DNA of 64,000 nucleotides from Ptychodera flava (Eukaryota > Hemichordata > Enteropneusta > Ptychoderidae): assembly GCF_041260155.1 (NCBI RefSeq), contig NC_091935.1:3018001-3082000 (forward strand), in the 5' to 3' direction. This document shows, piece by piece, positions 9,601 to 52,543 of this stretch. A program made the translations under genes and the position numbers. The notes below the pieces were generated by a model. That model searched no databases. It saw only the letters and a program-made list of their open reading frames with translations, and was not told where the DNA came from. Within the stretch, counting starts at the first letter, position 1. Each line of letters begins with the position of its first letter.

Positions 9601-12600
9601 AGTATTTAAGTGTGCGTGTGTTATCATCAGATTATGTATGAATGTTTATGCATAGGAAATTTTCGAGAAGAAGGACACACAGTATGCTACAAAGGACAGA
9701 TGTTACAAAGTTTAATATACAGATTGATATTGTGGGCTGACATGTTTTACGGAGTCTTGAATTGGGAATTAGTACCATCTGAAAAAAAATCTTTATGGTG
9801 GTTATATGAAGCATGATACTTCGCATCGAAACTCAAAAAACGACTCCTTCATTGATGTTGATCCATAGCTATGAGTTTGCCGGGTGTTTATTCAAGAAAT
9901 AAACCGACGGGTTGATACAATTGTAGCACTGCAGAAAGATACATATCAATATAGCCGTACATGAATGAAATAGCATTACAAGATGGTCTAGAAAAACCTG
10001 AACTAAAGATTTTCAATAAAGGGCTTTAGTTTTTTTATGCCCTTAATCTAAAGAGGTCACACATGTTCGTGCTATGTCACTAAAACAGGAGATTAATGAC
10101 AGATTCATTCACCTATTTCAGCAGCGAGAAAACTTGGCTATAAAAACCACCAACCCTTTCACGTACAACACCAGTGTCTTTTTTACATTGAGGTGACACT
10201 GGTGCCGCTGAATAAGCTATTCGGTTTCCTCACACAGTACGTTGCCTATCACATGCAAGCTTATAAGGGGGCCGTATGTAGATAATTTAAACATGCGCAC
10301 GGTAAACGCAACTAATTGTGTACGCCCTCACCCCTCCCCTCCAAACGAAAGTTTGAAAGTGCGAAAATCCAACCAAACCTCATTCTGTATCAGCATACCT
10401 ACAATCGGTAATTATGTCGCTATGAAATCACGCACACGCTGCCCCCCCCCCGCATACCTCCTCTAAAATCAATCTTTGTTCAGCGCCAACTCAAAAATGA
10501 CACAACAAATAGAATGAAATGACTTGAACCAGTGTATCCAAAATGATTGTTACATTATTTTAAATGTGCACCGAACCACATGTATGTCAAACTGAAAAAA
10601 TGCTGGTGTAGTGCCGGCGCGGTGCCGCACTGGCCTGGTACACGCCAAACTATAAAGCGATATCTTGCGATACATAAAAACATATAGTAAGATTTTGCGA
10701 TATAAAAACATGTAGTGCGATTTTTACACATGGTAATCGAAATACAGCCAACCCGCCCAAAACCACAGAAGTTGCGTTTACTGTGCGCGTGTTTAAATTA
10801 TCCAGGGTCCCTAACGTGAACCGCGTTTATGTATTGAAAAGGTTACGGTTGGTAACCCTTGCCTGAACTTTCTGCCTTTCTTTATATTTACAGAGTGAGC
10901 ACACTAGAACGTTCGGATTGACAGTTCACGTAACAGCTGTAAATGATTGGCCACCCTATTACAACAAATCATGTGAAACACCAATCAAAGACGAGGTTTG
11001 TAAACAAACGAATCATTTTGTCCAAAAGGACAAAAATGCTCGGGCAGACGTGCTTAAAATTTCAATTATTGCGAGTTCATGAGTAAAATTTTCACCGTCA
11101 ATTTGTTTCTTTCATTATAAAGATGCTACAGGGACTTCATTTTTTAAAATTTGTTTATTTTAATACGTTGTTACGCTGTCTTGAATGTTTTTATACATAT
11201 CTGAGATGCGAAATGGGGAAATGCATTTCTGTAAGTCAATACACATTGAGCAATTGTCAAATAAAAATGCAGTTCGTAACTAAAACCGTTTTTTTTTTCT
11301 CGTTGCACGTATCAGCGTTCATGGCCACATATCGCTGATATCTCACTGGATGGTAAGAAGGCCTCATATGATGATCCAAATGTCGATTTGTCCAAGCAGC
11401 TAAGATATGTTGCCAACAACTCCCACTGTAAGTCACGCATTCACAACGTAATCAATCGAAGAAAACTTATAAGTTTCTTCGATTCATTACGTTGTCTTGT
11501 CAACAAAATATCTGCACAAACTTGTATTGCCAGACAGCAAGTTCTTTAATGAAATGGCCAATCAGATTTGTACTGCAGAAGGTTAATGGTTACTTGTAAA
11601 CTATCACCGGAAGTGAACGTTTTTATCCTAACTTTGGGAAATTTTGGGTGGTATGGAAAACATAATTTTATTTCTAATTAAATTATCTTTGTCATTTGTT
11701 ATGAACTATAAGGTGCCCTAGATATATATTTCGGACTGATTGACACAAGCGCTCTCTTCCCAAGGCGAGGCACTTCGAACGATGAGATCAGCTGGTATGA
11801 CACCGAAGTGAAAGTGACACTTTTGGATGAGTCATATGACGTAGAAATTGTCGAGTTAAACAGAGGAAACACAACACATTTTGGATTTGAAATCTTTGAG
11901 GTAAAAGAGTGTGTTTTCACATGTGCATTTTAAGAGAAGAACAAGAGTTTAGAGTCATAAATAATGTAAAATGAGGGTCTTTATGTTCCCAGAAACATTG
12001 ATTCCACGCCGCACATCAAGAAATCGCAAACGCGCCATATCTTTCTTCATGAATCGACATTTCAATGATATGTTGTTTTATTGGTTTCAAAATGCTATGA
12101 GTATAGGAAGATTTCACAGTCACTAATATGTGAACTGTTCATCACATTAGTTATGGTTTTCGTTCACGGATAGATAAAACAAACTTGGACTTCTGAGATA
12201 TGATGGAAAAGTCAGGTATTTCGATAAGAGTAATTATATCCTTCTTAAGGTAGAATGCGCTTCGGGGACAAATCGCCAACCTCTAAAATTTCTACAATTC
12301 TTTTCGGATCTACCACTTGTTGGGGTTCATTTCAAAGCGTTTGGAGAAAGAAAAACTTTCAGTGACATAGTTTTTCGAAAATCCAAAATTTAATTTTTCG
12401 CCAGAGAGTTAACACAGAAATGGCGGCAATTTTGAATTTCAAATAACGGTAAACTTCCGGTAATTTGTTTCTCTAGTACTAAAACTTGCACGGTGACCCC
12501 CGAATTTTATTTTTGAGTTTGAAAGAGCATGGTTCAAATATTCTTTGTGGAAAGTTTGAGCAAAAGTGTAAGTCTTTCACTTTGGAGGCGCATACTAGCT

Positions 12601-15600
12601 TAAGGTTATTGTAAGATAATTAAATCAGTGATAGTATGATATTATAACAATGACAAAAATTGAATGCATGTGCTGTTATAATAATAAATATGCGTGAATA
12701 TTAATTAAGCACTCATCAAACTCCTGAAATAATAGCTATAGCCAATTATTTAGGTATGCAGCCAAAAGAAGGCATAAAATTCATGTGTTATGAGAGTGAA
12801 GAAGAAGTCACCAATATCCGAAATCCGGTTTTTAACCTCTAGAATGTGGAATATGATCATTCATTAGGCAAAAGAAGGGAAGCCGATCCAGAACCGTATG
12901 GTAAAAGAAGTAAGCGAGTATATGGGTCTAAAACAGGTTGGAAAAATTACTTTGAAAATGATTGATACACATGTTCGTCAGAGATTTGAGGTTGATGTAC
13001 GCTTAGCAATAAAGGGGAGCATGAAGAGACCCTTTGGTTTTGGAGCTGTTGAATTGATTTATGTTGGTAGGTAGCTGTCGAGAAGAGAACATTTTGTTAC
13101 AGCAAATGAATAACAAACATATTCATAGATTCACATGCCTATCAAGTTGAAAGTCAACGAACTATGCCAAAGGATAAATGAAATTTCATTTTTATCCTTA
13201 TAATAGATAAATGACACATTAGGCTCGCCTATTGTATCGATAGAGTATGGCTAAACACATTTTAGAATCATATTTGTTGTACAAATCCAATTAAGGCTGC
13301 ATTCACAAACACCTCTGGAGGGGTGATTCCAAAATAGTTCTCAGATTTTTTCAAATACCCCCTATCAAACTCACAATGTGTTCAAGTCCCCTCTTCTGAC
13401 TTGCTATGATTTTGAAGTCAATCTCTAAGGAAGGCAAAATGTGGCCGATATAATACTTCGTCCAAATATATCAAATCATAATACACGGAAGTCTATTGGG
13501 CAAACTATTGACATTTTTTTCCATAAAAAAACACTATATTTCTACATTTATATGTGTATGATAATTCATGTAAATGTACTTTGCTTGAAGTGGCAGGCAA
13601 AAAGTGCATTTGTGTACAAAAATTTTTGATTTGTGGATTTTATCTTTAATGTTGATCGATACATACATGGAAGTCTATTAGAAAACTATGAACGTGTATT
13701 TTCCAATATAAAACTAGCAATATCTGTTCATCTACGGACGTTTAATAACTGATATAAATATAGTTGATTAGCTTGGGGTGTTTACTAGTGCACATGTGTA
13801 CAAGAAATTAAATTTTGGAATTTCACCGAAAATGTTGATCCACTGCACATTGGGGTCTATGACAAACGTTTAAATAATTTTTTCCCAATATAAAATTTGC
13901 AATATTTGTGCATATTGACCCTGAATAATTGACATAATTGTACTCGGAAGAAGGTGGTTACACGTGCATATATGTACAAGAAATTTGATTTTGGAATTTT
14001 GTCGAAAATGTTGAGCCACCATACACTGTACTATATGAGGAAACTGTGAATATTTTTTTTTTCAAAATACAAACTTGCTAAATCTTTGTATTTATAGACT
14101 CTTGATTATGGATATGAATGTACTTGATTAGAAGCAGGTGGTTACAGGTGCATGTGTGTGCAAGAAATTTGACTTTTGAATTTCACCTACTGAAATTTTG
14201 ATTCACTATATATATATGAGGAAACTATGAATAGTTTATTTTGTTTGCAATACAAAACTTGCTAAATCTGTGTATTTATAGACACTTGATTATTGATATT
14301 AATGTACTTGATTGGACTAGGATGGTTACAGGTGTATGTGTGTGCAAGAAATATAATTTTGGAATTTTACCGAAATGTTGATTCATAATATATTGAAGAC
14401 TATGAGGAACTACGAATATCTCAGGAGTTATCATCTCCCAAATTGCTATTCAAAGGTTGTTTGACCTGAAGCTTCTAGCTGTCATCGATGATACTATGCA
14501 CTATTCTAAGTAGTTTGTATTATATCAAAGACCTCAAAAAATGTACAAACAGCAACATGAACATTTGACACCGACCTAGACTCCATGTATTGTCAATGGG
14601 AAAATGTTATCAAATAAGTTATCTCCCAAATTGTTATTGAAAGGTTAAGTTGAAACTTTTAGTCATTATAGAGGACAGTTTTGCACAACAGAGGGGTTGG
14701 ATAAGTAGAAATCATGACAACCTGAATCTCTCGTCCTTGGGTGGCTGCTTTGATCATCAATAAATTATTTAATATACCGTAAAACCTGCGCCCAAAGGGC
14801 AAGCCGAAAATGGAAATGGCAGGAAATGAAAGTGCAAGAAAGTATTCAGAAAGAAATTTTATATTCAATAAGTCCCCCAGCCCTTTGCAATGCCATTTTT
14901 TTCAGACCTTCCCCGGCATGTTGTAATTTTTTTCAAGTCCTCCCCCCTGAAATCTCCCTCTCCCCTCCAGAGGTGTTTGTAAATGCAGCCAAAGTAACTC
15001 AAACACTTATTATGATCACTTTTGTGTTTTAATAACCAATCATACATGCTAAGAAAATCGACATGAAAGTCATGAAAGTGAGCGAAGTACTCGGTCAATG
15101 TCACATTGCCAGTTTACTGGAAACTGTCAACAAAGGTTTTACATCGCTCCGACACCAGATATCGATACGTACAAGATCTTACAGTGGTTGACTTCTTTCA
15201 AGAAACAATCTCATTGAATATTGCACTTAATGCACAAGAAAAGTAATCTGCGTCATATTATGTAAATCTCCTACCTTTATTACGTCAACGCTGATAAAAG
15301 TACTTCTTCTTCAAAGGATGTCCGCTGAACAAATATGGTGGTTCCTGTGAGTATGACTGTATGTGTCAGAATGGAGCAACCTGCCATGCATGGAATGGTG
15401 CTTGCCAGTGTGCTGAAGGCTGGCATGGTTCAGTCTGTGATATACGTAGGTTGTTTGCCTTACATTCTTATATTTCCTGATGGATAGTTATTGCATAGTT
15501 TTAAAGGCTCTCTAAGTTCACATATCTGTAAAGAGGTCACTTACAAGTTGCTAAGACTGCGAAGTATAGATAAATAATCACCCGACAGTTACAAATTAAC

Positions 15601-18600
15601 TACAAGTTCATTTGATGTACGACAAAGATCGTATCTTTTGAATGATATTCAGAACGACATCTTAAAATTATTGACTCATTTATTAGTTCGGAATGTGATT
15701 TTATTGGTCAACAATGATATTTTAATTGATAACATTCGTAAAAGACAATTTAAGTAAAATTTATCACTAAAACTATTTGTTAACCAGTGGTCACTTCTCG
15801 TGTTTTAGCAATGGATCCATCAGTAACATTGATGATTTCGAGTCAGGAAGTATTTTACTATTCGCCTGTGCGACTTATGTGTAATTTCATCAATGTTTCA
15901 CCCGCGGAATTATTTTTTGAACTGAATGAAAGGATATTGACAGAAGAAGAAAAGGCGGTGGTGATTTCTAATTCCATACCAGGGTAAGTTACTATCAACG
16001 TATCAGGTTGCGTACTCGTCGCAAGTGACAACAAATCGGAGGGGGAGTGGGCATTGAACTTCATGAACAATTCATACAGTGTATTCGATTTAGTTTAAAT
16101 TTTGCTAGGTAGAATTAAACTTGGTTGAAGTTGCACAAAACTAATAATAATGCCATTGAAGTCTCTAGAATAAATAGAATGATATAAGTATTATATTTAA
16201 AGATTGTATTAGGCCTTTCTTAGGCCAAAAATTGTTTCTGGTCCTTAAGATATAGCAAAAATGATGCGACGACGCAGTTTTCTTTTTTTTCCTTTTTCTT
16301 AATTTTTTTTTAATTCATAACGATGCTGGTTTGGCACTATTGATGCAACAGTTATTGTCTTTTATCACTGGCTGCATAATATTTCCGTTTTCTTTTTATA
16401 ATTTTAGGACATGCAAACAGGGATATCAAGGATAACTGTACTGTTGATTATGTAACCGCCGCCCCCTCCCCCAAAAAGACATGACCCGCAGGTTAAGAAA
16501 TGACGCGCGCGGTGACCAGAAACGATCTTTTTTATTTGGTCTTAGTAAATAAAGATTTGGACAATACCATTATATTACCTGCGCCTTCAGTAATCAACTG
16601 TCGAATATCGAACAGGTTCGAAAACGCTCAGCCCGAATCTGTTTTAATACTGCATTCAAATGATTGAAACGACATTAAAATTGCGAACCAATTTCTCATG
16701 GCGCCTTGTTCAAACGAGCGAAGTGAACTTTGATCCTGAACTACTCATTTAATAGATCGGAATTTATGTCTTTCCTAATATAGCCTAACTCAGCTCAAGA
16801 TCAAGAACATGTCCAGCGAATTTGAGGGTTCTTACAGATGTAACGTTTCTTCCAAAGACCCAAGTATATATGCTATCTCTAATTCTTTGGAGGTGAACAT
16901 TGAAGGTAAATATAAGGAACTTATGGACGAGTGACATTTGTTTATATTATGTTTACTGCTTTCCATCACTCCTTATTGTGAAAATCATGAAGTACTCTCT
17001 TGGAATTGACTGTGATGTTATCACCTCTAATACTCTGCCTGTGATTATTCAGGATGTCAAGTTGGTATGTGGGGAAACGTCTGTCAACACCGTTGTGACT
17101 GTGTCAATTATATCAACTGCAGCAGATACCACGGGTGTATGTGTGACACTGGATGGTCTGGAGAAAAATGTGATCGAGGTATACATTGGTTTATTACAGT
17201 CAATTTAAAATAGATATTAGAATAACTGCGTGTGCCCTGAAATATTTAGGCTTGCATATGTGCCATTGACTACAGGAGTGTGCAGAACAACCGAATCAGT
17301 CAGAAGAGCAGCAGGAATCATGTGTTACACATACCCATACACCTGACGATAGAGTTTTCCAAGCCCTGTACGTTTCCATAACTCAAGCGCTTAATGTGTT
17401 ATATTGATTGACAGACACACAGGCTCCAATTATCCAGTGTCCCTTAAACATTACGAAGTTTGTGAGAGATCCCTCGACCAAAGTGAACATCAGTTGGCCG
17501 AATGTTAGAAGCACAGATAACGCAGGTCCGCCGGCGGTCAGCGCCAATTTTCGGTCCGGTGATCTATTCGAAATTGGGACGACAATTGTTATTTATAAAG
17601 CTGTAGACAATAGTAATAACTCTGCATCCTGCATATTTGCTGTTACGATAAATGGTAAGTTTTTTTCCTACAAACTACCGTCTTTATTACTCTTTTAAAA
17701 TGTACATTGGACATTATTACCAAGGTGAAGACCAATGCAGAATTAAGTCGTGACTTTGAAAATGTCAAGAATGCACATGTTCACCAGCCTATCCACATTT
17801 ATTCATACATGTAATATACTATTGCACATGTTACCAAGTACTTTTTAACAAAATACTCATAAAATAAGGTTAATAATTAATTTGAAGGAATATCCTTTTC
17901 ACAGGAATACAATAACCTGCTTTAAATATTTTATAAAGGCATTTAAAACCTGTTGAATGACAGAACTCGAATGTAAAGTTCGCCTCAAAATTGTAAGGAT
18001 ATGCAATGAAATTAAATTGGCATGAATTGTGGGAAGGAACCGTAACCCACGTCATAACAGGAACGCCCTCATTAATTCAACTAATCCATTAGCTTAATTG
18101 AAAGAGTATCTAAAATGTATCCAGCGGATGTAGGTATGAGAGTATACGTCGATTTTCATTCATCGATTTCATTTTACAGCATGTATGTATTTCATGTTTA
18201 CTGCATGTATGTATTTTATGTTTACAGCATGTATGTATGTATGTATGTATGTATGTATGTATGTATGTATGTATGTATGTATGTATGTATGTATGTATGT
18301 ATGTATGTATGTATGTATGTATGTATGTATGTATGTATGTATGTGTAACCTGCGAAATACTAGTGCACACCATTTCAAATGCAATTAACATAGGAGTTTA
18401 TAGCATAGCCCCTGCTACCAATATTCTTTTATTTTTCTACTCAGACTTAAAAAGGCATATTAATGAAGAGTTATAAATATCTGACGATACCTAGCAGTGT
18501 GCATGACAATTGATAAATTTAATATTCTGAATTATGTGTGAAATGTAGGCATTACGCCTTATTTATTTTTGTGTTGACATAATTATGCATATTTACCATC

Positions 18601-21600
18601 AATTTTTTTTTACTCAGGGAAGAATCTGCTACTACATGAGTGTAACCATCTTATCAAAGTGCAATGACAAATGTGACTGACAAAAATCTTGCCATTCTCC
18701 ATACATATATTCTTGATTTGGCTTTAGGTCCAGCATATCTGAACGACAAAGTGACAATATCTTTGATTGGTTTGCTAACAATTATCGTTATTGCAATTGT
18801 CACATTGGTTCTTGTCATTTTATTCAAGAAGAGGAAGAGACATAACTACATGCCTTTGCGTGAACCGAGGCTGTCTCTCTGTATACCGGTAAGTCGTGTC
18901 TCAGTTTTGCAAAAGATTGGATATTGTTCCTGTTCTTTCTCTTTCTTTCTTTACCTACTCAAAAAAGTGTGTTTAAACACCTGCTACAGTTGATTGTACT
19001 TTATCTACAATTTAGCTGTTTTTACAATTTCTGTGAAAGCTAAAAAAGAAACTGTTGTTTTTATTTAGTTTCAGCTCGAGAAATCCTCTTCACTCTTCGA
19101 CTCTCAGCTGAAATTGTAAAAACAGTTACATTGTATATCAAATGTAATCAACTGTTCATTTGTAAGTCCAGACAAAGCTGCTCCATGCTGGTTTACTGTA
19201 ATTATTCAATCAGTTGCGGTTACTTTGAAATGTGTCGTGATACCCAAGCTGATGGTGTGTTTTGTACATTCCATGTATCCGTCTCATATATTGAGTTGTG
19301 GTACCGATGATTAAATGCACTGTACATTGTATTTAGCCTGCTAACACAGCCTCTTTACGCTTTACTCTTTATTTATTTAGTTTAAGAATATTCAAAACAC
19401 GATAATTTCGAGAAAGTTCTAAGAATTCACAACAAAATTATCACGTCACTAAAATTTCATTTTTTTTATTCTATTTTATTTTATTTAGCTAGGTAGACCA
19501 ACGGGCACAAGGCCCATTTACAGGTATCTTGGAAATATATTAAACTTAACATATAAAAAAGAAAACTATACGCAAAAAAACAATAAAATAAAAAGTGACA
19601 TCACAATCATAACTAACAGGTAGTTAAAAACAACAATCAAGGAAACTAGTAAAAACATGCACCCTGCAGCGCATGCCGAAAGGTGAAAGTAGAACTAAAT
19701 AAATCAATATTTGGATGATCTTTTAAAATTCAATTGATAGTATTTAAACATCTTAAAATTTAAGAATATTTCCGGAGATTAATTCTAGAAGCACTGATGC
19801 GGAAATTGTAGCTATTACGTAGCTGTCTGGACGGTACGTTAAAAGGTATTTTGTACGAAATGAACGAGCAATTATAGTGTGACTTGACCAGTTTGAACAC
19901 AAAAGTGCCATCTAAACATTTACGTCACTTTACCAGTGGGGGAAGCTTAAATCTGGTACTGAGAGAATAATACTCTGCTGAAGTATATTGCAGATTTGAT
20001 AAAAAGCATAAAAATTTGATAATCTTTTACTGCACTCGTTCGATTTTATCAATTTGTGTTACTTGCCACGGAGACCATATAACAATGCAGTATTCTAGGT
20101 GGCTTCTCACGTGGCTCACATACAAAGACCTCAGAGCAGAAATATTTGAAAAGTTAGCGCATGTACGCTCAATAAAACCCATCATTCTAAAAGCTTTTCT
20201 GACAATACTATCAACGTGAGTATTAAAACACATGTTCGAGGTAAGAAGAATACCAAGATCTTTAACACTATGAACGCGGGCTAGTGGTCCACCAGCAATA
20301 CTGTAATTGTAGGTGATCCGTTTCTTTTTGTTTGTAAATGTAATGATGCTGCACTTCCCGACGTTATTGTATAGTGTATTGCACCATTTATAAACGTTAT
20401 CAATATCTGCCTGAAGGGAAATACAATCATGTTGTGTGCTAATTGTGCGATAAATTTTAGCGTCGTCAGTATACATTGAGCACAGTGATGATCAATGGCA
20501 ATGAACAATGTCTGGCAAGTCGTTGACATACAGAATGAACAAAAGTGGCCCAATTACTGAACCTTGGGGTACACCTGACGAGACATCACATGGTGATGAC
20601 GTGTGACCATTGATAAATACACGTTGTGTTCTGTGTCGGAGGTACGATGTAAGCCAGGACAAAACACTGCCGGTGAAACCATATCTGCTCAGTTTATGTG
20701 ACAATAAGGAATGTGATACAGTGTCGAACACCTTACTGAAATCAGTATAAATGCTGTCTACCTGTAATTTCTGATCGATAGCATACGGAAATATACGGAA
20801 ACAGCTTGACTTGAGTACACAGTATAGATGTCATCCGTCCAGTATTACTTGACTTTTCTGTTTTATTTTCTTGCCTTTTGTGCTTTATTTTCCAGGATGA
20901 AGTGCCCGTTTTTGATAGGAAAGAAATCGTTGTTGGGAAAATCATTGGGCAAGGGGAATTTTCCATGGTACATTCTGGCACATTAACGGTTGGAAATGAA
21001 AAAAGGAGAGTTGCAGTGAAAATCCTAAAGGGTAAATTTATCCATGCTTCTTTATACGTATTTAACTTTTCTTGTCTGTGCATATTTTCATTTGCGTAAT
21101 CACTGTATTATTGCACGATCATCGGACGTTCGGTTGCATTTCTTACAAGTAATGGTTACCTAAACTTGCGTAAAGAGTATTTAAACCGGGAGGAAAAGAA
21201 TTTACAAAAGTGTAATGTCATGGTTCTTTTAGATAAGTTTTAATTTGCTTTGTATTTGATTGAAATGATCTTGTTTTCATTTGCACCAGATGACATTGAA
21301 TATCAGACTGCCTATCAAAATGAAGTGACTACACTTGCCTTGTTAAGTCAAAGTCCACATATAATCCAATTGATTGGCGTTATTACCAATTGGAAAACAG
21401 GTAAGAAATGGAGATAGATTCGTGTGAAGTCGAATGTTTGACGCCTTTAATAATGGTGCCTTACTTCGGATCATATTGAAGCGAATGGATTCGAATTTTA
21501 AAATGGCGAATTTCGTCGTTACAAACATGCCAGGATGGAGAATTTCACAGTATTTGGAAATATTCTTAACACTTTGTGGCATCCTCAAAAGCTTAGCATA

Positions 21601-38037: not shown

Positions 38038-38423
38038 TTATCTTAAAGTTAAGAGTAGAGGTATATGTTCTTTTTCCTCCCCATTATTGTCAATGTTGTG
38101 TCTTTCGTTTCTATTTCTATTCGGTCGTTTTCTAGGCATAGCATACTTCAAGTTGTTCCAGAATTTCTCCGTGATACCGCCCTCTCTCGACCAAGGGATG
38201 TAAGAGATCTCCCTGAGCAGACTTTTCAGATTGGCATCCATGTCTTCCACTGGTGAGATATCTTCAAACATGATGGGGATTATTCTAGTTTTCTTCTTCA
38301 ACATTTCTTCCTGGGCTTTCAGGAATTCATAGCGACACCACTCACTCTCCACAAATCGAGGCGATAGAATGAGTATCGTACGACGGCTTGAATTGATAGC
38401 TTGCACGATATTCTCGTATATAT
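38038..38423 (-). CDS. Gene 2 exon 13: TIR domain end and C-tail
   Basis: Reads [20 protein letters not shown], then [17 protein letters not shown]. Box 3 is [11 protein letters not shown], close to the 'FW-K-x-x-x-Y-x-M-P' of IL-1R family TIRs. A charged tail of about 30 residues follows before TAA. A complete TIR. Confidence 0.92.
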
Positions 38424-41400
38424 CTGCGAGAAGAATGTGGAATGTAAAAATATCACTTTACATAAAAGGCAATTAATGGCAAGTATTGCCACAAAGGCGT
38501 TACGCGGATTATCGCTTACGCTAGCTGGTGCTACTATTTCAATTGCCATAAATTTGCAGGCGTTGGTGTTTACAAAGTGCTCGTCAGTACCCATGCGATT
38601 TATCGGAGATTTTCAGATGCCGCTTTTCTGGCAATTTTCATCAATACGGATAGACGCCTTTGTGACAAATACGAGGAACATCAAAAGGGCTTTCACAATG
38701 ATGCATTCGAATTCGGCTAGTACGGACATGATTTTGATAAAAGTGTCAATTTTTCTCAGTTTTTATTTGAGTAATGAACGAAATACAATGTCTCTTCCGC
38801 GGAAGTGGGAACACGCTAAAATACCCGGCTTTTTCAACTTTAGGGGACCTACAAGCATTTTGCTTTGCGAGTCTTTAAAATCAATAAACGTCGCATAAGT
38901 TCATTACCTATGCCTGGGACGAAGTTTCTGTGATGTTCACAAAGGATATATTTTCCGTCTCTCTCCAACTCCGGTATGAGAACACGCCGTACAAATTTCT
39001 CGTCCTCCGATTCACCATCCAAACTTCCGCAATAAGATACAAAGGCATCAAATGTCTTCCCATCTTTCAAGAAAAGAGATGGTTTATGGTATTTCACACA
39101 TATTCAAGTTGACACCGGCAATTCAAATAAGATACGTTAAGCCTTCAAAACTAAAGTGCAAATTTCATCATTTGCAGTAAATTAGTAACTGTATCAAATT
39201 TGGTGTCTTTTCGGACTAGTATCAGTGCCTGAAGTAATTGTCTAAATTGTCCCAGTTATGCGGACCTATAGCACTGATGTAACATAAACATAGTTACAAA
39301 GACTCAAGAAATACTGCCTCGTTTGACGTTACTACAGAATGTCTATATATAAATTTTGCTAAATGAATACAAATATGCAACAGTTTAAAGGCATATGAGA
39401 TAGATATCATTAGTTATATTGCTTCTGTACTAATATTGCCACTTCAGGATGCGGATTTGAATATGATATTAGGATACTTGTGAACAGAGACATACTTGTA
39501 TAAATTACACAAAATAACTTCATAACACACCATTTTCCTCATAGCCACCAAAATGCCATAGCAATCGACGTTGAATTCTGTATCGATGTCGATATGTCAG
39601 CACCGGTGCTACTGTCACCAGTATCAAACCAACGAATCCCACGAGAATTCCTGTCAACTGTGTCACCTTTTCGTCTAGAAAAAAATAGACAAAGAGGTTG
39701 ACATTCGTGACCATTTTGATGCTCTGTTTTTGCTGAATCATATGAGTGAAGGCCGGCTAGACAGAAAGATCCGTCGCTCGAGGAGCTTTCTACACTCCTC
39801 CCGGGTTTACTGTGAAATTTACTACTGTAACATCTTCTATCTAAACAAGGGCATGAATTTGGAATTTCAGATTATACGAGCTTCAATGGGAAGAATTCTG
39901 CGCATGTCGATATCAAGGAATGAAAAATCAAGCCCTGTTTATTTGCTAATTTTGAATATCTCCATGTTTTTCCTTTTGGTATACACGCAGTTGTTTGTGT
40001 ACTGTACATTGACAAAAATAAAAAGTCTATTAGGAGCGATTTTCGTAACACACTTTACATGTCTATCAGAGTATTAATCCATATGTATATTATCTGGGTG
40101 TAAATCTATGAATTTATCTCCGTAAAAGGAGATATGCATGTCCGTCTGTCGGTATGTACAGACTCAGGTAAGTATAGATGACTTAGTACGTAGATATACA
40201 TCTGCATTGGTACATATTTATACGTCCAAGCTATTCATCGACCCGTCAACAAATTTTCTTCCTTCCCTCCCTTTCTCCCTCCATCTCAGTCCTCCCTCTC
40301 CCCTCCCTTAACCCTTCCTTCCTTCCATCCATCCACCCATCCATTATTGACGGACGGACGGAAGGACAGAAGAACGGATGGATGTTCCCCAATTCCTCCA
40401 TCAATCCATCCATCCAGGAGAATTTCGTGTTATTTACACATACCTTTGTCAACCTTAACAGAGACGGCTCCATAACTACTACCAATGTCATTCGTTGCCC
40501 AACAGACAACGAGTATTGCCGAGTCTTGTCCTTTTACTCCATGGAGTTTTAACGAGGTGTCGTGCTGCCGTACTACAGGTACATGATCTACTTCCCAGCG
40601 ATACGTTATGTTGTTCGGGTTTGCGTCGACGTTGCAGTAGAAGGTGACGTCATTGCCATCTTTCGGCGCCTTGGGAAGATATGTTACGTCAACGAGTGGC
40701 TTATCTGTAACAGTTTAGCAGTTTAAATCGTAATTACTCACCCTTGCAGAAACCCAGTTGAAATGTTGACCTCAAGCGAAAGCCGAAAACGTTTCTTCGT
40801 GCTTTGTTTAAGATTAAACGGTATGAAAATTCGTCGAAAATTTTTAGTTTTAATGATTGGTCCATTTCCGGTGCAAAGTTATATAAATTTGGAAGGCTAA
40901 CTGCAGCTATTCTCAAGGTTAATCAAATATACACTTAAGAGAGAAACTTGTAAAGAGACATTATGACTCAATTATACAGTAAAAAATCCCATTTCGCGGT
41001 GGAGAGAGTTTTGCATAGAAAGAGTCACATTAATTGAAATACACTCATAAAGCGCCAGTAGTAATATTCCTAGCGCTACGCTAGGAAGGTAAAGAAATGT
41101 TAACTTTATACAAACTATAAAATGTTACGTGTGATCACTATACATAAATTAAATGTTGGCTTCTCTCTTATACTTTATAATTGATGAAAATAGCTGACTT
41201 GCGTGAATTTGGAGATTATTTTATCACTAATAAGCAAATTATCTTGAGAAATCTTGAAAAGCAGTCTTAAGTCTTCCTAGATATATGTTGAGTAAATCTC
41301 ATACTTACATTTAATATCTTCAAGTACTACCGATGTTCGATCATGGTACCCTAGAACATCGTTCCATGACTCGCATGTTATGTTTTTACCAACGTCTTCT

Positions 41401-43459
41401 TTAGTCAAAAACACTGTTAAGACACTGACGGTATTCATGCGATTCATAGTACCAACTTCCAGCTCGGTTGAGACATTTCTAGTCACCAATTCGCCGTTCT
41501 TATACCAGCGAATGCTAGCCGGCGGCTTACCATCATTTGCCCGACATGTTACTCTTACCGACTCGGACGAGCGGACTAGAAAACTCAAGCTTCCAAATTC
41601 AAAGGTATCCTCTATGTATGGCATGACAGCTCTTTCTACAAGTCGAAAATAATTTTAGGTCAATTATAATCACTTTGGGTAGCTTTTGATAGTCAAGTTG
41701 GAGGGCATTGTCATCTTTCCACTAACAATTCTAATGTAACTGATTTCATTCTTTGCCTTTGAATTTCTCGGTGATGTGACGTACATCCCATATCAGCTTT
41801 GACGTCATCGGCAGATGTAAAGATTTGGGGATATATATATTTTGAATATATGAAATGAGCAAGCCATTAAACAACACTTTTCTCACCTATTACTGTCAGC
41901 TGTGCAAAGTTTGAAACAATGCCCTTCTGAATATATGCCGGCCCAACTTCACAATGATATTCACGATCATCTTCAGTATTGACGTTTCCGATGTTCAGAT
42001 TGTAAGTTCCCTTCTCTGCAACGCTGTCTACACTAAAGTGTTCCTTCGCCCAATTTGCGACAATCTCATTTTCGACTGCCAAAAGAATATCTCTTTTTGC
42101 GAACCAACGACGTTGGCCGACTCTGTTAGCTACCGCACATTGCAACGTAACGTTGCCGCCTGCTGTAACAGTCACATCGGTAGGTTCCTCTATGAAATGC
42201 TGTTCACCTGGAAATTTACAAAAATATCAGTAAATGATTCATTTTACTAGTGCCCTAAGTATACGAACACCCTTGTTGGCATACTAAAAGTGTACTTAGT
42301 GACATTTTCGTCTGCAAGATTTGTAACACTCGGTAACAGGTTAAAGGGAGCCTGGTGTAGAAGATTACACAAACACGAAACACGTTGATATCACAGATCA
42401 TTACTTTAAAAGCATAACAAGTTTAGTTATTTAGTTTATGAGCACTTTGTATTTGAGGCGGTTTTCGTAACACCTTTCATTCAGAGCACACTCAAATATT
42501 GAACGCTACAATTGACATACTTAAGCCAGGAAGTCTTCATATTTGGAAAGTGTTTTACAGTTCCTACATACAAATGAACACTTTCAGATTTTTGCTTTTT
42601 TCTCACTTGAAGAAATCCTAAACCCCAATAACGTATATTTTTTTCTGAAAGCACTCATATAGGGAAATCCGACCAAGCACAGTACACACATTATTTGCAC
42701 AATGGTCACGTGATAAGCGTTTTGCTAAACCTTCCAAAAATCAATTTTTCCTCCCTATAGCAAACACGTTGCAAGCTTTAGATTTCCGTTTGAAATTTAT
42801 GCATTGACAAGGCTTGGTAATATCCTTTAAATCTGTGTCTGTGATTTTTTTTCCGAGTCTCCATTCAAGTTATATGGCGCGACAATTTCCATTCCTTGAT
42901 AGCACCTCAGTCTAACACCTTCAATAGTGCATAACAAATATTAAAGGCATATAAGGGAAATTACAGACACGGATTTGAAAGATTTTACCAAGACTAGTCA
43001 ACGCATAAATTTCAACCGGAAATCTTTCACCATGTTCGCTAAAGGGAGGAAAAGTAGATTTTTGAAAGGTTCAGCAAAACGCTAGTCATGTGACTATTAT
43101 GCGGATTCCTCTATATCAGGGCTTCCTGAACATGTACACTTTATTGGGGTTTAGGAGTTCTTCAATTGAGAAAAAAATAAATCTGAAAGTGTCTACTTTG
43201 TACGTAGAATCAATAAGGAGCAAAAGCAACATGTAAATGCAACATTTAACGTTTATATTGCAGCTACACGTTCTTGTTTTCCTCTTGGGTGGGGACTTTT
43301 TTCTCACCGATTGTCGTCAGGTTCAGTGTTGCTGTTAAATTTCTTCCATCAGGGTATACAGCATTGCACAAGTACAGACCTTCGTCATTGTGTTGGACTC
43401 TCACGATTTCTAGTATCAAAGCATCCCTAAAGTTGCAAATCAAAGGTAATCAATGAATT

Positions 43460-43533
<74 letters not shown>

Positions 43534-46500
43534 CCAATTAGACGTCTACATTGTTTAGTATTGGCCTACGGACAAGTCATACACATTGACGAAATCATAC
43601 ACAATGGACACTCTACAATTGAACGTATGCAGTGAATTTCAACAGGAGGTGACGGTGATGTAAATGTCAAATATTAAGGTCTGCTGGAAGAGGTGGCTTT
43701 ACTCTTGAACTATTATCAAAGGACAACAGTTTGATTCCGCAACAAAGCCAGCGATCTTGCACATAACAATAGGTTTCATACAAACAATTACTTAAGGAAT
43801 CCAACATAAAAGACGAAAAGTTTAGTTACCCAGATCGCCCCAAAGTGTATCTTTCTCTTGACATGATGATTTCTCCATTTCTGATCAAGTTCATCATCTC
43901 CGTGTTCATTCCGTATGCTTTGCAGGTCAAAGTGACGTTTCCGGTGTAAACTACTTTCTCTGAGGATTGGGTGAGCTCTAACAAAGGGTCATCTGCAGGG
44001 TGGAGATCAGTGACACAGTTTTATCTCTTGATCGGCCACTGCCGACGATTTAGTTACTTTTGTCAGCTAGCTATTCTTAGTCAACAGAGAGCGTTATTTT
44101 AAAGTGGAAATGCGAGCATAAAGTAGAATTAAATATATGGGAAATAGTTTTATCTAACCGAACAATATGCTTGCGTGAGCAGGCTAGCAGTTCGTTTCTA
44201 ACATTCACTAAATTTCACTGTAGTCCCGATCTCTGCAAAGTCAGACCGTATATTCAACTTCAGTCAATGCGTGGGCTTCTCAATAAATCCCATGTTTCTT
44301 AAAAGGCGGTCATTCAACATTAAACTTATAGTGTTGCAGGGGAAAAGAACTACTTGCAGTCCCTAAGTTGACCTCCGAACATGATAATTACTGCAGTAGG
44401 TAAGAGAATTTTCAGTTATTGTGGCCCGGTTGGGGCGGCTAAGTCATATTGCATTTCCGTAAAAATTGATGAACTCTCCACCAACGGAAATGTGTTACTC
44501 TCGAAGCAGAAAATGACAAAATTTCATGCCCAAAAATGTCATTGTCCACACATGTAGTAAGTATTGGTGATTTGTCGGAAATTGTATGCCTGTGCACTTT
44601 TCCATTCAGATGTTGCTTAGAGTGTTAGGGCACGCCATCATTTTTGTCCATTAAGTTTCTTAATTTCGGAGCCAGGGTCTATCTCTATGGGAAACAAAGC
44701 TTGGAGGCCTGAATTTACTGCGAATTCATCGCGACAGCCAGGAGAGGGCTTTCAGCCATGGCATCTAGAGCCTACCCACCTGAGGGGGCATTCTTTCTCA
44801 CGATACAATGTGCGCACTTGGCCCTGCATGGTCAATCTATTCAGAAGCACATATCGAAGTTATGGTCATAATTTGCTCGCTATTAGTCGAGACGATGAGG
44901 GAACAGTGGTTAGTGCAATATAATACCATCTGGAATATACTTGACAAAATTCGTATATTCAATATTCATTGAACGTGTATTGCAATGAAAAACAATGTAA
45001 TCATTTATTTCTAATTCATATAAAAGTAACACCAGCTGATAATGAAATGAGCCAACACACGGATCATCAATATTCCTTTGTGTTTAGTTAGTAAGATTGT
45101 TCATTTGTGTTTTGAACAAGGGTTGGACACCAACGACAATTAAGAAATTTATTCTCAATGACCAGAGTCTTTGGTGTTGTGGTATTTCTGCCAAAGTCTG
45201 CTATGTAGCGATCGTTTCCATTCAGTTGACAGTCTGCCTGCTGGACAAGCCTTCATCGACTTGCTAAGGCAAATTGTCAATAAAACAGATAATATTTGTA
45301 TTCTATAGGCTTTAGTGAAATGACAACAGAATATGGAAACTGGGGACATCCCCTCTGTTCTGTTGAATGTTTTTATACACTGAGTAAAGTTTTTTTTTAA
45401 ATGACGGTATATTTTCCATATCAAGAGCAATTCACTCTATGTTGTTTGAAAAAAAAGCCCCTGCTGCTCTCAGATTAGTATGACTCCTTGATTTTGCCTG
45501 GCCGTAATCACTCAACGCTGCCTTAGTATTTCGTTTAAAATGAACGCCAAACTAATGGGGGGCATGTTAGGAATTAGCCGGACTCATGGTAAAAAGAGAT
45601 CGTGTAAAAGGGCCAATATCTCGCCGTCGCATCGGCTTTAAAGCTCAGCTATGTTATTTTACGAGAAAGAACAACAATTTTGACCTTGAAATAGGTTGCT
45701 GTAGTAACATATTGAACATTCACAAAATAGAGCTTGGCGAATATAAAATCAAAGTTAACCTTGATTATTTAAAAAAAGGTATTTTTTAATTGTTACTCAC
45801 GTGTTCTACAATCACTCCCTGTCCAACCTTTCTGACAGTAGCAAGCTCCGTTGAAATCATGGCACAAACCACCATTTGCACAGTTGCAGTCGTGACTACA
45901 TTGGCCGCCATATTTATTGTGCGGACATCCTTGTAACAGAAATAATTTGAAAGGAATGTGTACGTAGATTGATCGATACAAAATCCACCCTTAATATGGT
46001 AAGCGAACATTGCAGCATAATGTGAACTTTGAAGTATGAATCGGGACACTTGTGCTGGTATTCGATATTTTTAATCTTTCTTTTATGGACTTCTATATTA
46101 CCAATTCTATTTATAGTACGTTTGTCACATTATCTGTTATTACAAATTGGCATTGAAATATATGTCACATTTCACGTCGTAAAAATATACAAAAGGAGAT
46201 CTTTTACAGAGAAATTTTATCTTTGAACGGTTTTCTTGCGACATACATGTAACATCTTTTCACTTCCTCAAAATCATACCAAATTGTTTACTGTTAAAGC
46301 AAAACTGTTAACAAAGCTTCAAGTTTATTTAATCATTTTGTATTTTTAATATTTCTTCGAATAAATTCAACACTGAACTTACCGCTGCCTACTGAATGCC
46401 AATCATTTTACTGGAATTCAAAATCGGTAGTATAACTTTGAATACGTTTACGAGTTCATAATCGACACACCAATATTCTGATGGATACCCTAATAGCCAT

Positions 46501-47476
46501 TTATATAGGTTCTAAGTGAAACATGAGTTCTTGTTCAGTCGCTGTGAGATAATATTTGAGACACTCTGATATTTCGGTGATTTCATTACTTTTTATTTTC
46601 CTGTGATCTTTTCAACTTGAACTTGATGAAAGGGAAAATCTGAAACAATGGCATTCGACTGTTAAGTCTCACCTTAAATGGTTACAACTAGATGTGTGCT
46701 GGTAACTATCAAGAATTACCTGAAAACCTTCCGCCTGTCCAAACACACGAAATAGTTCCCCTCCCTTAGTATGTAAATCCATATTATTTCTCTTCACATT
46801 TTGCTGCGTATTTCATTACTGTCATGCTAATTCAGAGTGTGTTTCCACGAACGACGGAAATTTGAACTCTTTTCAAGCAAAAGGTGAAGGAACTTTAACA
46901 AAATTAGTACTTTTCATCCAAAACTTACTCAAATGTACATTTCAATGAGGCTTACCTTTGAGATCCATGACAATTTTGAAGTCCGCTTTTTCTAATAAAA
47001 TGTCAAAGTACTTGATATGGCAGCCATATATAAGGACATCGATGAAATTGAATGTCTCAAAGTGGACTTGGGCAAGAATGCCATTACTTAACCATTTGGT
47101 TGGAATAGGGTGATCTGCTGTAACTGCATTGCCAAAGGAAAAAAATCATACCAACAAACATAAAGACAATCTGGCACATAAACAAACAAACGTTATTAAG
47201 CAAGGCAAACAATGGAGCTTCAAGCCGTGTCCTTTTCTGTGTTCGTTATTTTCTTCTTTTCATCTTGCCGTCACCTTGTCGACAATTTCATCTCCATGTG
47301 TCTACATAGCTTTGCTGCCGTCCTGCATGAGGTAGGTAGGTAGATAGGTAGGTAGGTAGGTATATGCATGTATGTATGTATGTATGTATGTATGTATGTA
47401 TGTATGTATGTATGTATGTATGTATGTATGTATGTATGTATGTATGTATGTATGTATGTATGTATGTATGTATGTA

Positions 47477-47519
<43 letters not shown>

Positions 47520-48111
47520 GTGTATGTATGTATGTATGTATGTATGTATGTATGTATGTATGTATGTATGTATGTATGTATGTATGTATGTGCGCGGACG
47601 GTCGGACGGGTGCACGCATGTATGTAATTTTGTTCTTTTCTCTTTCCTGTTCAATAGATATCCACCATGATTGTCTCTCTTATATTCTCTTTGTCTGTTA
47701 TGTCTACGCTTCGTAATCCTTTCTGTTTGCAATACTATCGTAAGGTCTGTTACAACCGATAACGTAGTAACTAACCGATAACGTAGCAAACCCGATAACG
47801 TAGTAAAAATTTACCGATAACGTAGTAAATCAACCGATAACGTAGTAACGAACCGATAACGTAGTAATTTTTCTAACCGATAACGTAGTAAAAATTTACC
47901 GATAACGTAGTAATTTTACCTAACCGATAACGTATCAACAAATTTACCGATAACGTATCAATGAACCAATATCGGATTAAATCAACTGATAACGTAGAAA
48001 AGTCAACCAATACCGCATCAAAACAACCAATAATATATCAATTAACTGATAATATCTGATTAAGCGATTCATTAGGAGCGATAGATCGATCGATTTATAG
48101 ATAAATAAGTA

Positions 48112-48176
<65 letters not shown>

Positions 48177-48177
48177 C

Positions 48178-48243
<66 letters not shown>

Positions 48244-50183: not shown

Positions 50184-50250
<67 letters not shown>

Positions 50251-51840
50251 CAATCGTTCTATTAGTCAAGCAATCGATCAATTCATTCAATCATTCAGTC
50301 GATAGAAAGATCGATCGATTGATATATCAGTACATCGATAGATCAATCGGTCGATCTATCGATTGATCAATGGATTGATCGATCGATTTAGGATACATCT
50401 TTCCCTAAGAATATATTCCCATGATTCATTTGATCCAATACATTGTCAGTTGATTTGATACGTTATCGGTAAATTTGTTGATACGTTATCGGTTAGGAAA
50501 AATTACTACGTTATCGGTAAATTTTTACTACGTTATCGGTTAGAAAAAATTACTACGTTATCGGTTCGTTACTACGTTATCGGTTGATTTACTACGTTAT
50601 CGGTAAATTTTTACTACGTTATCGGGTTTGCTACGTTATCGGTTAGTTACTACGTTATCGGTTGTAACAAGGTCTCCCTCTAGCATTCTATCGTTACCAA
50701 GCGATTGGAGGCACGAATGCCATTCATGATAAATACGAGCACATTTTGCATATGGTAAGAGGGCGCTTAGATTAAGAAAAATAAGCTATTTGCAACTTCC
50801 TTTCAATTTAGGCCTCTTTAAAGAGGAGAATGTAACAATGTTGAACACACACTCACCGATGGTCTTGTCATTTTGATCTCCGACTCGGAGAAGATCCACT
50901 CGTCCATTGTCAACTTGACATAGCAATTGTATTTTGTCATGATTGATAAAGCCTACAGATATGGCCCAACCAGCATGGACATAAACGTCAACGGCACCTA
51001 TCGAATAATTATAATATGCAAATTATCATCCCCTGATTCACAACTTGCAATAAATTCAGAGGCAGCACTCTAACCTTCTTTCGAAAAACGAACAAAACTC
51101 AAAAGTTGAGGCTGGTATTTACACAATGATGATTCTACTTGTATAAACCACTGAAAGCCGATTCTAGATGATATGTTTTGTCTCTCTGTATATCATGAAG
51201 TAGACTTGGCTTTCGAACGTGCACCCTTCGCAATTCAACGTGTACACGAAGTAATGATGGCGCTGGAGAGGAGGTTTACACTGCTGCAGTAGGTGACTAA
51301 GCATGATGAAGGAACATAAATATTCATTTCCACCTCGTGTCACCATAGGATTCTTCGATATTTGAAAACCTTTTACAGCAATTTTATACTAAGTCATCAT
51401 TATATATACCAGATCAAAAACACATTCCTAATTTGCATTCTCTCTCACATTTTCGTTTGTACTTTGCGCGTAGAAAGTAAGCTTATATGCTGTACTCTCA
51501 GTTATAACAAATAAGATTAAATGTTATCATGCAAGTTTAGATTGGATGTTTTTGATCAACTTAATGTAAATGATTGTAAAAATTAAAAAAATAAATAAAT
51601 ACAAACTATAGATAGTGCCAGAAGAACAAAGTCAGAACGATTGAATCACATGTGCCCAAGGAGCAAGAATGCACCAGCCTCACCTTTTACTATTAAAGTG
51701 AAATCAAAACTTTAGAAAGTAACTCAAAATATACTCACAATGGTTACCAGTGAAGACCATGCTTTCAAGATCGATGAAAATGCCGCTTTTCGGCAGCAGT
51801 GCTGGTTCGGTGACGTCCACGGATATGACATGTTCACCCT

Positions 51841-51910
<70 letters not shown>

Positions 51911-52543
51911 TGATTTCCATCTTGTCATAATCTCGCTTTTGTCTCAAGGTAGTTGTGATCAAATAGTGGTCCACGGTTCGCATGCTGTTTGAATTGCTGT
52001 TGACCTGAGAAAGTGCTTGTGGCTCAGAAATGAACGGCAGCATACATTAGTTTGAACCAACCAAAATTGATATCGTGAATATCCCTGTATATTGTATTAA
52101 GATGCAGCCTCGTCCAACGATGACATCGAAAGATCGAAACTTAATCAAATTCAGACATATTGTGTAATGGTGCGCCGTTTTGCAACGCTTGTGATATCTG
52201 AAATAAAACAGCGTGCACCAGTAGGCCTATGTTTGTTCTGTTTCGTACATCAGACCATGGTAGCACAGCAAAACATAAATTACGTCGGTGAATATACTCT
52301 GAAATGACTTGCAAATAACGCAAGGCTAGCATGATTGGCTGTGTTGAATGAGTTTAAGTCAGTTCATTCAAAGTATTCTGTCTGTTTACTGACCTTTGAC
52401 CCGACGGAATCAAAACTCGCACGATCAGTTCTGTTTTTGTAACATGACCAATCGAACTCAGCTGGACAAGCATGCCCGATGAAAACACAACTCCAAATAC
52501 TTATTGCTGTAAAGATGCGTACTGCTGCGTTGATGCTAAACAT
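38038..52543 (-). CDS. Gene 2: IL-1-receptor-like receptor with EGF, four Ig domains and TIR
   Basis: A single-pass receptor expected to signal through TIR-TIR contacts, as IL-1R and Toll receptors do. Thirteen exons on the minus strand: 52543-52394, 51838-51739, 50997-50857, 47123-46956, 45929-45801, 43992-43830, 43426-43308, 42207-41887, 41635-41309, 40704-40444, 39674-39531, 39063-38908, 38423-38038. They sum to 2565 bp, an exact 855 codons with the stop, and all junction phases agree. Order: signal peptide, unrecognised module (three exons), one EGF, Ig1 (split), Ig2, Ig3, Ig4, membrane span, TIR (split). The TIR motifs are of the IL-1R rather than the Toll type. The EGF and the N-terminal module are unusual for an IL-1R relative and match gene 1. 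An AATAAA (minus strand, 38027-38022) lies 10 bases after the stop. A 2.9 kb inverted-repeat element sits in the fourth coding gap, and a foldback element sits between Ig1 and Ig2. Confidence 0.88.
38908..39063 (-). CDS. Gene 2 exon 12: TIR domain, box 1 and box 2
   Basis: Phase 1 to phase 1. [12 protein letters not shown] is box 1 in the form typical of IL-1 receptors (DGKxYDAFVSY). [14 protein letters not shown] is box 2, the BB-loop region. The intron falls inside the TIR domain, just after box 2. Confidence 0.9.
   Translation of the reverse strand: MGRHLMPLYLIAEVWMVNRRTRNLYGVFSYRSWRETENISFVNITETSSQA
39531..39674 (-). CDS. Gene 2 exon 11: membrane span
   Basis: Phase 1 to phase 1. About 20 hydrophobic residues ([18 protein letters not shown]) are followed by basic [17 protein letters not shown], placing the following exons in the cytosol. 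Confidence 0.85.
40256..40420. repeat. Pyrimidine-rich and (CCAT)n low-complexity run
   Basis: CTTCC/CCTCC and CCATCCAT units with a short inverted GGACGGAC segment, in the intron between the Ig4 and membrane-span exons. Confidence 0.8.
40444..40704 (-). CDS. Gene 2 exon 10: Ig4
   Basis: Phase 1 to phase 1. [20 protein letters not shown] and [13 protein letters not shown] give the two cysteines and the tryptophan. Membrane-proximal Ig domain of the ectodomain. Confidence 0.85.
41309..41635 (-). CDS. Gene 2 exon 9: Ig3
   Basis: Phase 1 to phase 1. [20 protein letters not shown] has the first cysteine and tryptophan, and [13 protein letters not shown] the second cysteine. Flanks are clean AG and GTAAGT. 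Confidence 0.85.
41887..42207 (-). CDS. Gene 2 exon 8: Ig2
   Basis: Phase 1 to phase 1, a whole I/V-set Ig domain. [20 protein letters not shown], then [11 protein letters not shown] with the core tryptophan, then [10 protein letters not shown] with the second cysteine. The opening resembles first Ig domains of nephrin/kirre-type proteins. Confidence 0.85.
42563..43210. repeat. Large foldback element in the Ig1-Ig2 intron
   Basis: The left arm (about 42563-42850) and the right arm (about 42945-43210) pair along their length: 'acactttcagattt' with 'aaatctgaaagtgt', 'cctaaaccccaata' with 'tattggggtttagg', 'aaatttatgc' with 'gcataaattt'. The spacer is about 90 bases. No open frame. Likely a non-autonomous DNA element. 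Confidence 0.8.
43308..43426 (-). CDS. Gene 2 exon 7: Ig1, C-terminal half
   Basis: Phase 2 to phase 1. [18 protein letters not shown] is the E-F strand motif with the second cysteine. It ends LNLTTI before gtgaga. The (ATCA)n array in the preceding intron ends about 20 bases upstream of the acceptor. Confidence 0.8.
43455..43535. repeat. (ATCA)n microsatellite
   Basis: About 19 ATCA units, just 5' (on the minus strand) of the acceptor of gene 2 exon 7. Confidence 0.95.
43830..43992 (-). CDS. Gene 2 exon 6: Ig1, N-terminal half
   Basis: Phase 1 to phase 2. [19 protein letters not shown] and LTCKAYG give the B-strand cysteine. The first residues align with gene 1's [14 protein letters not shown], and the intron falls at the same point and phase. 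Confidence 0.8.
45801..45929 (-). CDS. Gene 2 exon 5: EGF-like domain
   Basis: A 129-bp phase 1 to phase 1 exon: [35 protein letters not shown]. Six cysteines in laminin/MEGF spacing. Nearest relative in the window is gene 1's first EGF. Confidence 0.85.
46956..47123 (-). CDS. Gene 2 exon 4: shared module, part 3
   Basis: Phase 1 to phase 1, 168 bp. Reads [20 protein letters not shown], then FIDVLIYG and FKIVMDLK before the EGF glycine. Position, length and strand pattern match gene 1 exon 12868-13066; sequence identity is low. Confidence 0.72.
47338..47600. repeat. (GTAG)n, (ATGT)n and (GT)n compound microsatellite
   Basis: GTAG units, about 29 ATGT units, a GT run (47481-47510) and another ATGT block. 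It ends 150 bases before the inverted-repeat element. Confidence 0.95.
48112..48245. repeat. (GATA)n microsatellite inside the element
   Basis: Two GATA blocks split by one GACGAT, then GATC-rich sequence to about 48480. Confidence 0.95.
50190..50250. repeat. (AT)n and (AC)n microsatellite inside the element
   Basis: About 23 AT units then AC units, flanked by GATC-type palindromic tetramers (50160-50185, 50270-50390). Confidence 0.95.
50857..50997 (-). CDS. Gene 2 exon 3: shared module, part 2
   Basis: Completes the cysteine and reads [17 protein letters not shown], then [19 protein letters not shown]. The opening is parallel to gene 1's CALDIYFGL. Phase 1 at gtgagt. It lies between an intron of about 0.75 kb and the intron holding the 2.9 kb inverted-repeat element. 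Confidence 0.75.
51739..51838 (-). CDS. Gene 2 exon 2: shared module, part 1
   Basis: Phase 0 to phase 1. [19 protein letters not shown] is followed by [13 protein letters not shown] and the T of a split cysteine codon before gtgagt. Its acceptor directly abuts a long CT repeat that serves as pyrimidine tract. Confidence 0.75.
51842..51907. repeat. (GA)n microsatellite acting as splice pyrimidine tract
   Basis: About 33 GA units on plus, so CT on gene 2's strand. It ends 2 bases before the AG acceptor of exon 2. Confidence 0.95.
52394..52543 (-). CDS. Gene 2 exon 1: signal peptide
   Basis: ATG at 52543 opens [20 protein letters not shown], a basic start and hydrophobic core, with likely cleavage near GHACPA. 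The exon continues [11 protein letters not shown] and ends in phase 0 at AAAG|gtcagt. Gene 3's first exon has a matching FDASCHKQYD and the same phase. Confidence 0.75.

Follow-up and report, generated by a model that had tools for sequence, protein, structure and literature searches.

Neighbouring acorn worm receptor genes that appear to carry a related outer segment on a tyrosine kinase and on a TIR domain

Two receptor genes of Ptychodera flava, an acorn worm (enteropneust hemichordate, Ptychoderidae), lie next to each other and end in a tyrosine kinase and in a TIR domain, respectively. The question raised by this locus is whether their extracellular parts have a common origin and, if so, how they came to be joined to unrelated signalling halves. 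A first-pass annotation of the 64-kb window, the whole stretch of DNA that was analysed, had described the two genes as sharing one N-terminal half, and had proposed a duplicated receptor with a swapped signalling half. The observation is partly confirmed and holds with corrections, and the interpretation is partly supported: the genes appear to be neighbours with a related outer segment, placed on a tyrosine kinase in one case and on a TIR domain in the other. Gene 1, on the plus strand, and gene 2, on the minus strand, are arranged tail to tail, while gene 2 and a probable third gene lie head to head. The exon models are spliced readings of the window, with signal peptides and membrane spans called by eye in all of them; protein comparisons rest on predicted models throughout, and tblastn matches of database proteins to window exons were counted at E up to 0.01.

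Gene models in the window

Gene 1 (477 to 25666, plus strand) consists of 23 exons encoding 1013 amino acids, with consistent phases and no internal stops, in the order signal peptide, WxxW domain, cadherin-like repeat, module, EGF, split Ig, EGF, HYR, transmembrane segment and kinase. Exon 1 (477-540, phase 0 to 1), read by eye as the signal peptide, ends in a GT donor and is matched by residues 1-25 of the annotated protein P0012; exon 2 (3657-3914), also matched by P0012, encodes the WxxW domain (Pfam Mucin2_WxxW, 2.5e-20). The cadherin-like repeat starts in exon 3 (8176-8246, phase 1 to 0, matched by P0012), continues through exons 4 (8850-8939) and 5 (9418-9525), and ends in exon 6 (10894-10995), which also holds the S-C linker; exons 5 and 6 are matched by both P0012 and P0011. 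Jointly, exons 3 to 6 reach 3e-4 with Pfam Cadherin, a score below the curated cut-off, and make up one repeat only. Exon 4, for which a counterpart in P0011 was recognized by eye, is missing in P0012 and is the sole exon of the 23 with no tblastn match. The gene had initially been taken to start at 10894, with the linker; this proved wrong, the matches of the upstream exons to P0012 placing the real start near 477.

The module follows in three exons (11316-11427, phase 0 to 1, splitting a cysteine codon; 11713-11900, phase 1 to 0; 12868-13066, phase 0 to 1). P0012 matches the first two and the first part of the third, the last part of which corresponds to P0007. Next come EGF1 (15317-15445, 129 bp), the two parts of the Ig domain (15809-15983, phase 1 to 2, and 16784-16905, phase 2 to 1), a Tie2-like EGF2 (17053-17178), the HYR domain (17415-17654; Pfam HYR, 3.9e-17), a transmembrane segment (18728-18888, a hydrophobic stretch called by eye), seven kinase exons spanning 20896-24780 (20896-21031, 21290-21400, 22729-22886, 23464-23589, 23933-24009, 24289-24329 and 24584-24780) and a last exon of 16 codons plus stop (25616-25666), which matches the C-terminus of P0007. 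EGF1, both Ig parts, the transmembrane exon and all seven kinase exons are likewise matched by P0007. Pfam scores of the EGF domains and of the gene 1 Ig (Ig_3, 3.3e-4, for its first part) fall below the family cut-offs.

With a Pfam kinase domain (PK_Tyr_Ser-Thr, 8.6e-71) behind a membrane span called by eye, gene 1 has the layout of a receptor tyrosine kinase. Judged from its sequence, the kinase looks intact; its spliced frame contains a stretch of 15 residues and the motif RWMAPE, which we take to be key kinase motifs. Most of the 60 PDB matches listed, out of 2570, belong to FGF receptors; RET, Mer, FAK and the insulin receptor appear at similar scores, and the top one listed is named EGFR, a 678-residue chain aligned in two stretches. 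Since these receptors score alike, and the EGFR match is split in two, the kinase is assigned to no family.

Gene 2 (52543-38038, minus strand) comprises 13 exons encoding 854 amino acids, with GT-AG at all internal junctions, agreeing phases and no internal stops. It encodes, in this order, a signal peptide, the module, an EGF, a split Ig, three single-exon Ig domains, a transmembrane segment and a TIR domain. Exon 1 (52394-52543), with the signal peptide and an FDWSC linker, and module exons 2 (50857-50997) and 3 (46956-47123) are matched by P0002, P0004 and P0005, module exon 1 (51739-51838), which splits a cysteine codon, by P0002. The EGF exon (45801-45929, 129 bp) is followed by the two parts of Ig1 (43830-43992, phase 1 to 2, and 43308-43426, phase 2 to 1), by Ig2 (42207-41887), Ig3 (41635-41309) and Ig4 (40704-40444), which together span 40444-42207, and by the transmembrane segment (39531-39674, a hydrophobic stretch called by eye), all of these from Ig1 onward being matched by P0001. 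Two exons (39063-38908 and 38423-38038, within 38038-39063) encode the TIR domain (Pfam TIR, 5.9e-21). Four Ig domains and the TIR are recognized by Pfam. The acceptor of module exon 1 lies directly behind a long CT repeat (about 51840-51905), and splicing at this site could differ between individuals.

A third member of the family probably starts at 60286-63676 on the plus strand. Its exon 1 (60286-60417), a signal peptide and an FDASC linker read by eye, is laid out like exon 1 of gene 2, and is followed by module exon 1 (62670-62784, phase 0 to 1, splitting a cysteine codon) and module exon 2 (63498-63676), which runs from phase 1 to phase 0 like its gene 1 counterpart. Of two cysteines in a row, the split codon yields the first, which in the alignment is displaced by one residue relative to the D-I-F motif. 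Against the joint module profile, the spliced exons, which were hand-picked by eye for their likeness, outscore each of 3000 shuffles; in tblastn, none of them was matched by the database proteins. Gene 3 continues past the window, its signalling end lying outside the 64 kb.

The cassette of genes 1 and 2

Read in spliced exons, both genes run through linker, three-exon module, EGF and split Ig in that order. As described in the first-pass annotation, a cysteine codon is split by the first module intron in either gene, the EGF exons are both of 129 bp with 26 of 43 residues identical, the first Ig is cut in phase 1 to 2 in both, and the genes diverge downstream, into EGF-HYR-kinase and Ig-Ig-Ig-TIR, respectively. 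What had to be amended is the notion of a common N-terminal half: the module-EGF-Ig cassette is indeed common to the two genes, but it is internal in gene 1, where it lies behind the WxxW domain and the cadherin-like repeat.

Intron phases agree between the two genes at six of seven positions, the phase of the second module intron being the one that differs. All three linker exons, that of the probable gene 3 included, end in phase 0. Behind the split cysteine codon, genes 1 and 2 both read A-[LV]-D-[IV]-Y. The phase is 0 at the start of the cassette and 1 at its end. Its best conserved part is the EGF, and tblastn of gene 1 against gene 2 aligned the EGF exons only, with no detection of the module; paired similarity at the level of intron DNA was not seen by tblastn either. 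Common descent of the module-EGF-split-Ig cassette is supported.

The module itself, of about 135 to 165 residues, is a previously undescribed and probably beta-rich domain. Profile alignments of gene 1-type with gene 2-type modules show 22 to 25% identity. In the profile-profile comparison, which had been proposed as a check, a match of 67 columns exceeded all of 400 shuffled controls. Tests with single sequences indicate a weak or mixed homology. Out of 3000 shuffles, the number reaching the real score against the gene 2-type profile was 7 for gene 1, 614 for P0011 and 3 for gene 3, and against the gene 1-type profile 77 for gene 2, 40 for P0005, 141 for P0002, 1663 for P0004 and 1084 for gene 3; in runs of 5000 shuffles it was 13 for gene 1, or 12 when gene 3 was added to the profile, and 37 for gene 3. 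Against Pfam, the gene 2-type module gave no hit above cut-off, the best one being PF18711 (0.19, below cut-off, in one of four members), and a PDB profile search gave no match at E up to 1. Structure prediction for the module was of poor quality. With neither a Pfam nor a PDB relative in these searches, the gene 2-type module may be an enteropneust invention.

A narrower homology may be envisaged, limited to an EGF-Ig pair taken from a Tie-like receptor, with two unrelated modules placed ahead of it by chance. Residues 187-306 of gene 2 (EGF-Ig, interval 45929-43308) match residues 279-404 of Tie2, the angiopoietin-1 receptor, at 1.7e-10, and the EGF2 of gene 1 is the stretch of that gene best matched by the same receptor (2gy5, 5.7e-8). 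These similarities, together with the failure of tblastn and of several single-sequence tests on the module and with the diverging phase of the second module intron, would fit such an origin; it leaves aside, however, the split cysteine codon with its adjoining motif, the phase-0 end of all linker exons, that of the probable third gene among them, and a profile-profile score for the module higher than that of every control, and we regard it as unlikely. The Tie2 similarity is in itself of some note in an invertebrate deuterostome, concerning an EGF in a kinase receptor and an EGF-Ig pair in a TIR receptor.

Joining of the module to the TIR and kinase halves

For gene 2, the connection between module and TIR is backed by annotated proteins. 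Over 79% of its length, gene 2 is identical to P0001 (P. flava, interleukin-18 receptor accessory protein-like isoform X2), which is the model annotated for the window itself and begins within module exon 3; P0003 (83%) differs from gene 2 at its start. The full gene 2 order is found in the P. flava paralogues P0002 (72% identity, 840 aa) and P0004 (54%, 857 aa), and in P0005 (49%, 863 aa) of Glandiceps talaboti, a member of the Spengelidae, in which signal peptide, module, EGF, four Ig domains, membrane span and TIR are contained in one protein. By tblastn, P0002 matches 13 of the 13 exons, P0004 and P0005 11 each. The module-to-TIR join is thus carried by three annotated proteins from two acorn worm families.

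For gene 1, none of the database proteins found joins the module to a kinase in one piece. P0012 (P. flava) spans the signal peptide, WxxW domain, cadherin-like exons, linker and module as far as module exon 3, and eight of exons 1 to 9 are matched by it in tblastn; P0007 (P. flava, named insulin receptor-like, 94% identical to gene 1) covers every one of the 15 exons that run from module exon 3 to the C-terminus. The end of P0012 and the start of P0007 both fall inside module exon 3, through which the window copy reads. Gene 1 might accordingly be two genes, one for a WxxW-cadherin-module protein, secreted or short, and one for a separate EGF-Ig-EGF-HYR kinase receptor, as annotated for this nearest copy. 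We find this quite improbable: the window frame is unbroken through module exon 3 and the exon behind it, and P0007 has no signal peptide recognizable by eye. Furthermore, P0012 agrees with the window as far as EYMGL and stops after seven unlike residues, which speaks for a frame difference rather than a gene border, and P0011 unites the cadherin-like repeat, the module and a gene 1-like EGF in one protein. The simplest reading of the sequences is that the break between P0012 and P0007 reflects a shift of frame in that copy, whether genuine or introduced by the assembly; the published P. flava assembly is, according to the part of the paper available, based on polished PacBio reads (PMC11175523). 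For gene 1 as a single receptor, the module-to-kinase join would rest on the single unbroken, phase-consistent frame of the window and, for the module-EGF portion, on P0011.

P0011 and P0012 are short annotated forms with no membrane span by eye, and one member of the gene pair, or its short forms, could in principle act as a ligand trap that titrates what the other member binds. The divergence between the modules is large, however, no ligand is known, and the two short forms may be incomplete gene models, so that such a role seems very improbable. P0007 and P0012 (gene 1-type) and P0002 (gene 2-type) are each listed with a contig of 50.6 Mb, while P0001, P0003 and P0004 (gene 2-type) and P0011 (gene 1-type) are each listed with one of 45.7 Mb.

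Known receptors and a possible history of the locus

Tie receptors (Tie2/TEK) resemble both genes in the EGF and EGF-Ig matches reported above, and gene 1 also in being a receptor tyrosine kinase; EGF repeats adjoining Ig domains, typical of the Tie family, are present here. Tie receptors carry three fibronectin III repeats before the membrane, whereas gene 1 features a WxxW domain, a cadherin-like repeat, the module and an HYR domain instead: a Pfam search from the linker onward (E up to 1) lists 12 families for gene 1, with no fibronectin III domain among them, and the Tie2 kinase is absent among the 60 of 2570 PDB matches listed for its kinase. RET, which is among those 60, has a cadherin-like extracellular part on a tyrosine kinase, as gene 1 does. 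Ahead of its membrane span, RET carries four cadherin-like repeats plus a cysteine-rich domain; gene 1, in contrast, has a single such repeat (3e-4) and no cysteine-rich domain, but includes WxxW, module, EGF, Ig and HYR.

Members of the IL-1 receptor family feature three Ig domains, a membrane span and a TIR. Gene 2 resembles them in its extracellular Ig domains, single membrane span and TIR, as reflected in its NCBI name, IL-18 receptor accessory protein-like, but departs from their layout by the addition of the module, the EGF and a fourth Ig. Its TIR is nearest to those of Toll-like receptors 1, 6 and 10, then 2 (4.3e-25 for TLR1), with SIGIRR (4.3e-14) and IL-1 receptor members (2.5e-11 for IL-1RAcP) scoring lower, so that gene 2 looks IL-1R-like in layout, a descent of its TIR from that family being not clear from the sequence. 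Ig2 to Ig4 are nearest to Kirrel and SYG proteins. Unlike Toll-like receptors, gene 2 has no leucine-rich repeat among the 14 Pfam families listed for it. Cnidarian Ig-TIR proteins, whose TIR belongs to the TLR group and which converge on the IL-1R architecture according to the available text of PMC7075850, similarly place an Ig ectodomain on a TLR-type TIR; neither a module-EGF cassette nor a kinase partner sharing the ectodomain is described for them there, and EGF is mentioned zero times in the main text of that paper. Shuffling of extracellular domains onto a conserved kinase is well described for receptor tyrosine kinases (PMC8662651, in the part available), with the difference that here a TIR receptor of the same locus carries the shuffled cassette as well. 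The available parts of PMC8662651 and PMC7075850 describe no kinase and TIR receptors at one locus with the same cassette and common intron positions.

We consider it likely that an old ectodomain cassette was duplicated, and that its copies were then fused, at a phase-1 intron, with two signalling halves unrelated to each other. The genes would belong to a small family of acorn worm type I membrane receptors, whose common cassette would consist of a cysteine-bearing linker, the module and one EGF, extended in genes 1 and 2 by an Ig that a phase-2 intron divides. This cassette follows the signal peptide in gene 2, where the remaining Ig domains, three in number, the membrane span and the TLR-type TIR come after it; in gene 1 it stands behind the WxxW and cadherin-like domains and ahead of EGF, HYR, membrane span and kinase. 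After a duplication long ago, the phase-1 intron behind the split Ig would have served for the joining to different signalling halves, and a separate replacement would have occurred in front of the linker. The proposed swap of the signalling half is supported in so far as the cassette is common and the switch falls at the phase-1 intron after the split Ig; since the N-terminus of gene 1, with WxxW and cadherin-like domains, differs as well, two cassette borders have changed rather than one. A cassette starting in phase 0 and ending in phase 1 is not a symmetrical exon block able to enter any phase-1 intron, and its phases thus fit duplication with partial replacement better than block insertion. 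The event is probably old, as suggested by the missing similarity of intron DNA and by the occurrence of the gene 2 layout in two acorn worm families.

Each receptor may be clustered by a ligand or contact on its ectodomain, upon which the kinases of gene 1 would phosphorylate each other in trans, and the TIR domains of gene 2 would assemble with one another. A shared ligand is an unsupported conjecture, the modules being 22 to 25% identical and the EGF the best conserved part. Only tentatively, and with considerable doubt, could one go further and suppose that one new cassette was given to several outputs next to each other, kinase and TIR at least, gene 3 having either of these or a further one, and that a single recognition chemistry feeds both growth-type and innate-immune-type signalling. 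Receptor outputs seem to have been exchanged here by exon shuffling; the locus, if confirmed, would provide a concrete case of a swapped signalling half, in which one could study whether a change of output left the recognised partner the same.

The window also contains several repeats. Remains of a hAT-type transposase (5608-7870, minus strand; Dimer_Tnp_hAT, 8.4e-9; zf-C17orf113, 4.7e-16) lie in the gene 1 intron between the WxxW and cadherin exons, and a reverse transcriptase fragment (20495-20830, minus strand; RVT_1, 9.5e-12) within the intron before the kinase; another such fragment is found at 26465-28372 (plus strand; RVT_1, 7.8e-32). Long tetranucleotide microsatellites of the ATGT type, which read as MYVC/HTYI frames, are located at about 2390-2660, 8330-8690, 18220-18345 and 47350-47620. 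Finally, three copies of a dispersed repeat, about 250 to 315 bp long and 77 to 80% identical, occur at 12286-12597, 24844-25152 and 56875-57124.
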